From Sandarakinorhabdus sp. AAP62 (lineage in GTDB: Bacteria; Pseudomonadota; Alphaproteobacteria; Sphingomonadales; Sphingomonadaceae), in the NCBI RefSeq assembly GCF_000331225.1, contig NZ_ANFY01000018.1, forward strand, positions 1 to 54,485: DNA of 54,485 nt, read 5' to 3'. A model generated the notes under the pieces. The model had not been told where the DNA came from. It saw nothing but the letters and a program-made list of their open reading frames with translations, and ran no database searches. Shown here piece by piece: positions 27,664 through 52,044 of this stretch; positions within the stretch are counted from its first letter, which is position 1; the number at the start of each line of letters is the position of its first letter. A program made the translations under genes and the position numbers.

Positions 27664-27672
27664 GGCGGATGT

Positions 27673-27803
27673 CACCTCTCCCCGCCGGGGAGAGGTCGAG
27701 AGATGCCCGCAGGGCGGCCCGGGAGGGGGGCTGTTTCAGCGCATGTTGACCCTCTCCCGCCGCGCGACGCACGAGTCGACCTCTCCCCGCCGGGGAGAGG
27801 TGA
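27673..27803. repeat. Palindromic repeat, family A copy 1 (intergenic)
   Basis: A 23-base palindrome beginning ACCTCTCCCC and ending GGGGAGAGGT lies at 27674-27696 and again at 27779-27801. They flank a middle segment containing CCCGGGAGGGG and a CCCTCTCCCGCCG block. The same two-palindrome unit occurs inside birA at 32720-32838. This copy lies between the coiled-coil gene and the SDR gene and ends 16 bases before the SDR start. Confidence 0.85.
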
Positions 27804-29355: not shown

Positions 29356-29463
29356 GCCCGTCATGCTGGCGCAGGCCAGCATCCAGCGTGGCACAAGTGT
29401 CCATTGCGATGCAGCAGGCATGGCGCGAACCAGTGGATGCTGGCCTGCGCCAGCATGACGGGC
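29356..29463. repeat. Inverted palindromic repeat, family B copy 1
   Basis: A 30-base arm at 29356-29385 (begins GCCCGTCATGCTGGC, ends GCCAGCATCCA) is repeated as its perfect reverse complement at 29434-29463, with 48 bases between. Each arm contains the inner palindrome TGCTGGC...GCCAGCA. It lies between the convergent TrpF-like and DUF1467 genes, where it could act as a two-way transcript end. The remaining intergenic sequence (29301-29355 and 29464-29530) shows nothing I can name. Confidence 0.9.
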
Positions 29464-32270: not shown

Positions 32271-33086
32271 TCAATATCCCCATAACAGGGCGAAGACTTC
32301 ACCGGCGTGGATGGCACGCGTGCTGCCGTCGTCAAGCTGCATCAACAGCGCGCCATCGTCGGCAAGGCCGGTGAACAGGCCTTGCGGGCTTTCGCTGCCG
32401 AGCCGCGCGACGATGCGGCCGCCGACGCCAGAGGCCCGCGCCAGCCAGGCGGCACGGATGGGAGCGAAGCCATAGGTGGCCCAGGTTTCACGCCAGTGCG
32501 CAAAGGCAGCCGCCAGTTCATCAAGCACGGCGGCGGGCGTGGGCACGGCAAGGCCGGCGGCGGCCAGGCTGGTGGCGGGGCGTTCGGTGCTCGTCGGATA
32601 GTGGGCAAGGTTGATGCCGATGCCGATCACCAGCGCCTCCCCCTGCCGTTCGAGCAGGATGCCGGAGCATTTGGTGCCATCCAGCAGCACATCGTTGGGC
32701 CATTTCAGCGTGAAGCGTTCACCTCTCCCCGCCGGGGAGAGGTCGAGAGACGGCGTAGCCGACCCGGGAGTGGGGTTGGCCCCGCCCCTCTCCCGCCGGG
32801 CTTCGTCCGAGTCGACCTCTCCCCGGCGGGCAGAGGTGATGTGCGTCAGCGCATCGTGCAGCGCCAATGCAGCGACGAAGCTGAGTTGCTGCACCTGGCC
32901 TAGGGCTTTCACCAGCACGCTGCCCATGAAGTTTCCGGCGCCATCATTCCACACCCGGCCGCGGCGGCCACGGCCGGCGGTCTGGCGATCGGTGATCACC
33001 CAATGGCCGTCAGGCAAGGCTTGGGCGCGGGCCAGCAGCCAGTCGTTGGTGGAACCGACCTCGGTGAGGTGGGTGACGCTGCTCAA
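32271..33086 (-). CDS. birA: Biotin-protein ligase with an in-frame palindromic repeat insertion
   Basis: The 271-residue product starts at TTG 33086, overlapping the nuoN stop (TTGA). It is monofunctional, without the DNA-binding domain of E. coli BirA. Ligase motifs are GSTND (11-15), the biotinyl-AMP loop GRGRRGR (38-44), KWPND (128-132) and GIGINL (155-160). The family normally runs from helix LALHDAL to LKWPND with only about ten residues between. Here residues about 83-125, rich in Arg, Gly, Pro and Ser, are encoded by the palindromic repeat at 32720-32838. The frame stays open across it, so a longer protein is predicted. Whether it is active cannot be seen from sequence. The enzyme attaches biotin to acetyl-CoA carboxylase. 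Confidence 0.9.
   Translation of the reverse strand: MSSVTHLTEVGSTNDWLLARAQALPDGHWVITDRQTAGRGRRGRVWNDGAGNFMGSVLVKALGQVQQLSFVAALALHDALTHITSARRGEVDSDEARRERGGANPTPGSATPSLDLSPAGRGERFTLKWPNDVLLDGTKCSGILLERQGEALVIGIGINLAHYPTSTERPATSLAAAGLAVPTPAAVLDELAAAFAHWRETWATYGFAPIRAAWLARASGVGGRIVARLGSESPQGLFTGLADDGALLMQLDDGSTRAIHAGEVFALLWGY
32720..32838. repeat. Palindromic repeat, family A copy 2 (inside birA)
   Basis: The 23-base palindrome seen at 27674 recurs here at 32721-32743, and a slightly changed copy is at 32815-32837. The middle contains CCCGGGAGTGGGG and CCCCTCTCCCGCCGGG, matching the order in copy 1 with a 12-base shorter total. It lies wholly within the birA coding frame and adds no stop codon. 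Confidence 0.9.
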
Positions 33087-39039: not shown

Positions 39040-39056
39040 CAGTTCGCCCCTTCCCT

Positions 39057-39131
39057 GTCATGCTGGCGCAGGCCAGCATCCAGCGTGGAACGGGGGCTTG
39101 CGCCATGGATGCTGGCCTGCGCCAGCATGAC
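39057..39131. repeat. Inverted palindromic repeat, family B copy 2, inside the nuo operon
   Basis: An arm at 39057-39082 (GTCATGCTGGC...GCCAGCATCCA) is repeated as a perfect reverse complement at 39106-39131 with 23 bases between. It is the same family as 29356-29463, with a shorter spacer. It lies between nuoI and nuoJ, where the transcript would form a long stem. Confidence 0.92.
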
Positions 39132-51946: not shown

Positions 51947-52044
51947 GGGGTGGGAACCGGGAACGACCCAGACCGGAATCGTTGCGGCTGCTTCCTTCCG
52001 GACCTGACCGGGTTGGCGAGCGGCCTGTCCGCCCGGCTCCCACG
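51947..52044 (-). ncRNA. ffs: Signal recognition particle RNA (small, 4.5S type)
   Basis: On the minus strand, 5' GTGGGAGCCGGGCGG pairs with 3' CCGGTTCCCACC, and the apex contains the near-invariant GGTCAGGTCCGGAAGGAAGCAGCC split over the strand at about 51986-52011. This hairpin with its conserved loop is diagnostic of bacterial SRP RNA, which binds Ffh and directs membrane proteins to SecYEG. The ends are set from pairing and may be off by a few bases. It is divergent from dnaX, its usual neighbour in alphaproteobacteria. Confidence 0.92.

Follow-up and report, generated by a model that had tools for sequence, protein, structure and literature searches.

A palindromic repeat in open frame inside the biotin protein ligase gene of Sandarakinorhabdus sp. 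AAP62, with recurrent hairpins at the same enzyme loops across the genus

The single-copy biotin protein ligase gene (birA) of Sandarakinorhabdus sp. AAP62 contains a 121-bp copy of a multicopy palindromic repeat, through which the reading frame stays open, at a loop where the BirA proteins of its congeners carry no comparable insert. In the explanation that we consider highly probable, a non-autonomous palindrome would have entered this loop and would be read through by the ribosome, leaving the enzyme core unchanged. We regard read-through into a disordered loop as the best explanation since birA is present only once and both of its halves look selected. The mode of movement, the translation of the insert, and the retained activity are what we infer from sequence comparison.

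Within the window, which is the whole analyzed stretch of 54,485 nucleotides of contig NZ_ANFY01000018.1, birA occupies positions 32271 to 33086 on the minus strand (with a TTG start, as given in the list of open reading frames) and forms a single open frame of 271 codons that runs through the insert. The protein has no N-terminal DNA-binding domain. Its Pfam matches are BPL_LplA_LipB at residues 12 to 159, spanning the insert, and BPL_C at residues 224 to 265, and solved biotin protein ligase (BPL) structures rank top among both its profile matches and its fold matches. The element itself extends from 32719 to 32839 on the minus strand, corresponding to gene nucleotides 248 to 368 and codons 83 to 122, and is flanked in the gene direction by an outer hairpin arm on the 5' side (32813 to 32839, one substitution from the family arm when read on the minus strand) and another on the 3' side (32719 to 32745), the arms themselves being listed without a strand. 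The upstream part of the enzyme, with the GRGRRGR motif, is encoded at 32840 to 33086 (minus strand, codons 1 to 82 and one base), and the downstream part, from the KWPND motif to the stop and including BPL_C, at 32271 to 32718 (minus strand); both motifs are intact in the alignment with relatives. A sequence-only reading of this DNA had already described a repeat at this position that keeps the frame between two intact halves of the ligase, all of which holds with the frame and the two Pfam domains given above, apart from the bounds, which had been set at 32720 to 32838 (119 bp). The birA element is predicted to fold with −95.6 kcal mol−1, compared with −62.0 ± 4.4 kcal mol−1 for 200 dinucleotide shuffles (z −7.7). 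The open reading frames on either side of birA resemble coaX and nuoN by eye. At its C-terminus (32271 to 32285), BirA ends in LWGY, four residues past the point where most aligned same-genus relatives end, and elsewhere in the window a bacterial small signal recognition particle RNA lies at 51951 to 52039 on the minus strand.

The repeat family is found at about 24 places in the genome. With 78% identity to query positions 1 to 121, the intergenic copy at 27672 to 27803 (plus strand) indeed belongs to the same family, as had been proposed for a copy starting one base later. The 21-base arm was matched 40 times per strand in the 3.13-Mb genome at up to three mismatches, with most places counted on both strands because the arm is nearly self-complementary, and the reversed control gave 0 matches. 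Full copies measure about 121 to 151 bp and are built of outer arms like TCACCTCTCCCCGCCGGGGAGAGGT and an inner G-rich/C-rich pair; by eye, each comprises two slightly different halves, GGTCGACTCG..GCGGGAGAGGGG and GGTCGAGAGACG..CCCGGGAGAGGGG, that face each other or stand in inside-out order, an arrangement similar to that of paired REPs. The eight full copies extracted from the focal genome (122 to 151 bp as extracted) start with TCACC in seven cases and end with GGTGA in seven, to within one base. Of their 48 frames, 29 are open, only a small excess over the 24.6 expected from shuffles of the same composition; among 15 copies from the genus, 65 of 90 frames were open at an expectation of 48.5, and all 23 full copies examined, 8 from the focal genome and 15 from relatives, had at least one open frame. 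The exact 23-base arm, allowing one mismatch, occurred in 4 of 149 genomes of the host's family, own genome included, and is thus nearly private within the family for this sample, which holds two same-genus relatives, and diverged relatives of the element were detected in at least 17 of 24 genomes of the genus, again own included (E up to 1e-5). With regards to a possible MITE nature, the element has inverted ends, and the empty birA sites display no clean target-site duplication. Mobilization by a RAYT was dropped as unsupported, as Y1_Tnp (PF01797) gave 0 matches in the own genome, while the control was positive in 5 of 14 genomes.

The comparison with relatives bears directly on whether the residues are new. 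Of 23 same-genus relatives, 20 yielded a BirA match (all but G012, G016, and G023), and a comparable insert was found in 0 of these 20, which answers the concern that palindrome-free relatives might carry the same residues. The six closest BirA proteins (G003, G011, G001, G020, G015, and G009) are 80 to 87% identical to the focal protein, with G003 at 87%, and are 35 residues shorter exactly at the insert, where the focal protein reads ALHDALTHITSARRGEV...SPAGRGERFTLKWPND and a relative, for example, ALHDALSALTGQPARFALKWPND. The estimate of about 43 extra residues ahead of KWPND made by the sequence-only reading is correct in kind, with the number revised to 40 codons and a net gain of 35 residues (HITSARRGEV...SPAGRGERF against, e.g., ALTGQPARF). 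Compared with the insert-free gene, the net length difference is 105 bp for an element of 121 bp, from which it follows that some 16 bp of the former loop sequence were lost and that this was not a simple clean insertion; TCACC, the left edge of the element, occurs at some of the empty sites as well (L064, L065, and L080). The same difference in length is apparent over a wider range of organisms. Among named loci from the best 80 of 565 relatives, a set from which the own genome may have been left out, BirA matches reached at most 735 nt, and of the 55 loops readable in this set, 53 had a distance from GRGRRGR to KWPND of 55 to 61 residues, the remaining two having 67 and 69, compared with 90 in the focal protein (positions 38 and 128). 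Over this stretch, G001 and G009 match named loci of Sandarakinorhabdus limnophila and S. cyanobacteriorum, respectively, exactly.

The birA copy is one of several that lie inside genes. We scanned 74 repeat places with their flanks for open frames, namely 18 own places and 56 from 15 same-genus genomes, the latter being part of the matches listed; left out were L131, L134, and L144 (too near contig ends), six copies of the focal genome that lie at the ends of contigs, and some solo arms. Requiring at least 100 nt open on both sides and a codon score above −0.25, at least 9 of the 74 places are in frame inside genes with recognized Pfam domains, a lower bound given these filters, and the assumption that copies within genes are rare for this kind of repeat has to be abandoned. 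Besides birA, the focal genome has the repeat in frame in tsaC/sua5, between Sua5_yciO_yrdC and Sua5_C, and in the 2-oxoacid dehydrogenase E2 gene, between E3_binding and the catalytic domain. In relatives it was found in frame in tsaC (G009), E2 (G015 and G018), ileS (G010; missing from, e.g., G011, G014, and G002), glyS for the glycyl-tRNA synthetase beta subunit (G021), and putA, between the proline dehydrogenase and aldehyde dehydrogenase domains (G006). Of the 22 other genomes in which glyS was matched, 16, among them the focal one, show a break in the alignment at query residues ~360 to 408, and the putA alignment breaks at ~367 to 407 in G007, G014, G016, G020, and G021. Across the inserted proteins, the arm is read in three frames (TSPRRGEV, DLSPAGRG, and SPLPAGER). 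The codon-usage test proved too weak, failing to pick up tsaC in either species or the E2 of the focal genome. Several candidates were set aside: long open frames at L014, L024, L037, L040, and on the minus strand of L023, as well as alternative frames at L061 and L034, were rejected for having no Pfam match; at L017 (FtsX-type permease), L042 (DUF559), and the plus strand of L023 (thioesterase), the repeat stands ahead of the domain and probably upstream of the true start; and the open frames at L265 and L136, with no Pfam match, were left uncounted.

In a tree of trimmed BirA, TsaC, and E2 sequences, G001, G003, and G011 form the sister group of the focal species, with a support of 0.989 for the four and 0.820 for the trio. 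As this trio is empty at all three genes, the three insertions of the focal genome would most simply be placed on its own branch.

The loops hit in the focal species hold different hairpins in other species, for example at birA in G006 and G019. Counting perfect stems of 8 bp or more with a loop no longer than 8, and leaving out unparsed loops, hairpins were present in 4 of 19 birA loops, 6 of 19 tsaC linkers, 3 of 19 ileS loops, 5 of 17 first E2 linkers, and 3 of 20 second E2 linkers, where the excess is slight (3 vs. 2.0 expected). Pooled, this amounts to 21 of 94, compared with 4.6 expected from codon-order shuffles and with 9 of 188 flanking coding windows of equal length, a test that is descriptive since the genes were chosen for holding an insert. 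We tentatively suggest, as a possibility that falls somewhat short of an even chance, that several unrelated palindromes repeatedly and independently give new segments at the same linkers and loops of essential Sandarakinorhabdus enzymes (the BirA loop, the TsaC linker, the E2 linkers, and the IleRS loop), which would make selfish hairpin DNA an ongoing general source of protein linker sequence in the genus, perhaps with a preference of the repeats for such sites.

Some further repeats were seen at or near these places. The focal ileS (L307, G000:C20:53155-54717) has a different in-frame hairpin, PSPSLQAGRGEEAPLPAREGLGEG, after CTPQWFVPMD. A second palindromic repeat of the window, GCCCGTCATGCTGGCGCAGGCCAGCATCCA, is present as a perfect inverted pair at 29356 to 29463 and as a single copy at 39054 to 39091, and by eye resembles a CGTC-type REP; the ileS of G010 additionally contains RHAGEGQHPA...DAGLRQHDS, which by eye resembles a translated form of the CGTC-type repeat of 29356 to 29463. 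In place of a palindrome, the tsaC linker of G007 (L113) has a brief tandem array, with three copies of IAPEL followed by IAPGM.

The recurrence at birA, with such stems in 4 of the 19 species parsed, could be taken to mean that the insert was selected, the added loop altering BirA in partner binding, stability, or regulation. We consider this highly unlikely, as the inserted peptides differ by species and the same repeats enter unrelated enzymes, both of which fit tolerance better than a role specific to BirA. The loop may confer some advantage, but nothing in the analysis points to one.

Very unlikely, in our judgment, is that the insertion inactivated birA and left a young pseudogene, in a cell that manages without it or with another ligase. 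A 121-bp hairpin within the catalytic-domain match would be compatible with such a loss, as would the birA of relative G017 (L082), in which the halves flanking this loop do not share a reading frame. The latter gene would be either damaged or an assembly error, and unless it is an assembly error, changes at this loop are not always harmless. Against inactivation stands that there is no other ligase in the genome, a second intact birA, with this copy not expressed, having been named beforehand as a finding that would overturn the read-through: the other five matches in the own genome are all at repeat copies and overlap the insert. Moreover, the 271-codon frame is open, the motifs are intact, and dN/dS is low on both sides of the insert. 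Between the focal gene and those of G001, G003, and G011, it was 0.132 to 0.186 for the whole gene (230 codons), 0.066 to 0.100 upstream, and 0.126 to 0.192 downstream of the insert, compared with 0.108 to 0.162 for the whole gene in pairs among the three relatives. Although such pairwise values average over the time before and after the insertion, both halves look to be under selection.

The structural prediction is in line with a preserved enzyme. The AlphaFold2 model of BirA has a mean pLDDT of 87.4 and places the insert between a helix (residues 65 to 85) and a strand (125 to 128), with successive blocks within residues 91 to 120 at 72, 59, and 43; residues 41 to 50 are also low (60), and low confidence is therefore not unique to the insert. 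At the insert point, two solved BPLs have a short loop in the alignment. The simplest reading would be an enzyme core with an added disordered loop, and the earlier proposal of a new loop in BirA agrees with the predicted position between the helix and the KWPND strand.

An assembly artefact, in which short reads were wrongly joined through the repeat, has to be weighed for any multicopy element. At least five contig ends lie within repeat copies (C2, C7, C12, C15, and C22), showing that the assembly was broken at the element. We rate an artefact at birA as only remotely probable, since a wrong join would unite unrelated loci, whereas the two flanks here are parts of a single birA gene, just as they are in the relatives, and since the birA copy of the repeat has substitutions of its own. 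Scarcely credible is a repeat that is present in the mRNA and absent from the protein, spliced out as a hairpin or bypassed by the ribosome, for which the very stable hairpin with matched ends might speak, but which would require no open frame through the insert, finds no Rfam match above the gathering score at the element, and corresponds to no splicing or bypass system known to us for this kind of repeat. An RNA-family reading of the element was likewise dropped, its five weak matches all being to microRNA families and far below the gathering scores.

Palindromes in frame within genes are familiar above all from Rickettsia, the parallel drawn by the sequence-only reading. According to the part of a review available to us, Rickettsia palindromic elements (RPEs) are multicopy palindromes of ~150 bp that lie in frame inside the genes of unrelated enzymes, each being said to encode a conserved peptide (PMC10969869). 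The birA element is likewise a multicopy palindrome in an open frame with homologous flanks, is absent from orthologues, and has relatives in unrelated enzymes, which makes the RPE, as described there, its closest functional parallel. The likeness drawn here is one of description, and the birA element differs in its non-rickettsial alphaproteobacterial host, its GC-rich composition, and the use of its arm in three frames. GTAG and CGTC REPs are described, in the accessible portion of another study, as short palindromes, solo or paired, that are mostly intergenic with some inside ORFs, among them tRNA synthetase genes from a number of species, one of them given as S. alaskensis; its authors suggest linkers and loops as neutral REP sites and note that two Xanthomonas species have recB hit at nearly the same position (PMC3733652). 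Compared with what this source gives, the birA family is longer (a REP unit has 20 to 40 bp), has TCACC/GGTGA ends, carries no GTAG or CGTC tag by the stem, and resides in a genome that has no Y1 transposase; by its ends and length, it stands outside both REP superfamilies. Enterobacterial RU/ERIC elements, as far as the excerpt consulted describes them, are intergenic mobile repeats of 103 to 168 bp, which can be found within ORFs too and are open (PMC2759123), a likeness to the birA element that we draw by description and across different hosts. In-frame palindromes as such are therefore already known, and what is new is another repeat family, with the recurrence of hits at the same loops standing out. 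Within the partly accessible literature, we found no report of intragenic REPs for Sphingomonads and none of a palindrome in birA, and on Sandarakinorhabdus palindromes only a stream-phage paper.

Returning to the read-through of a palindrome that entered birA, the course of events may be pictured as follows. A non-autonomous palindromic repeat, mobile or mobilized in a genome that has no Y1 transposase, would land both within and between genes. On the lineage to the focal species, one copy would have entered the birA loop between the helix ending in ALALHDAL and the KWPND strand, surviving there because it is poor in stops, because the net 105 bp are a multiple of three, and because the loop tolerates a change in length. 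The ribosome would then read through, adding about 35 residues rich in Arg, Gly, Ser, and Pro to BirA, which are probably disordered. That the repeat is translated, as proposed at the outset by the sequence-only reading, is what the open frame and the best explanation suggest. Copies would persist wherever the frame is open and the site tolerates a length change, as in linkers and loops, and selection would keep the enzyme and ignore the loop.

For annotation, the finding carries a warning, as residues of this kind may be trimmed in error or the genes that hold them called broken. In this genus, which has cultured and named species, a single-copy biotin ligase and further housekeeping enzymes would be examples of in-frame palindrome insertion, and the empty sites in close relatives together with the recurring hairpins make it directly testable whether such segments are neutral baggage or a change of the protein. 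The recurrence across the genus is the part worth following.
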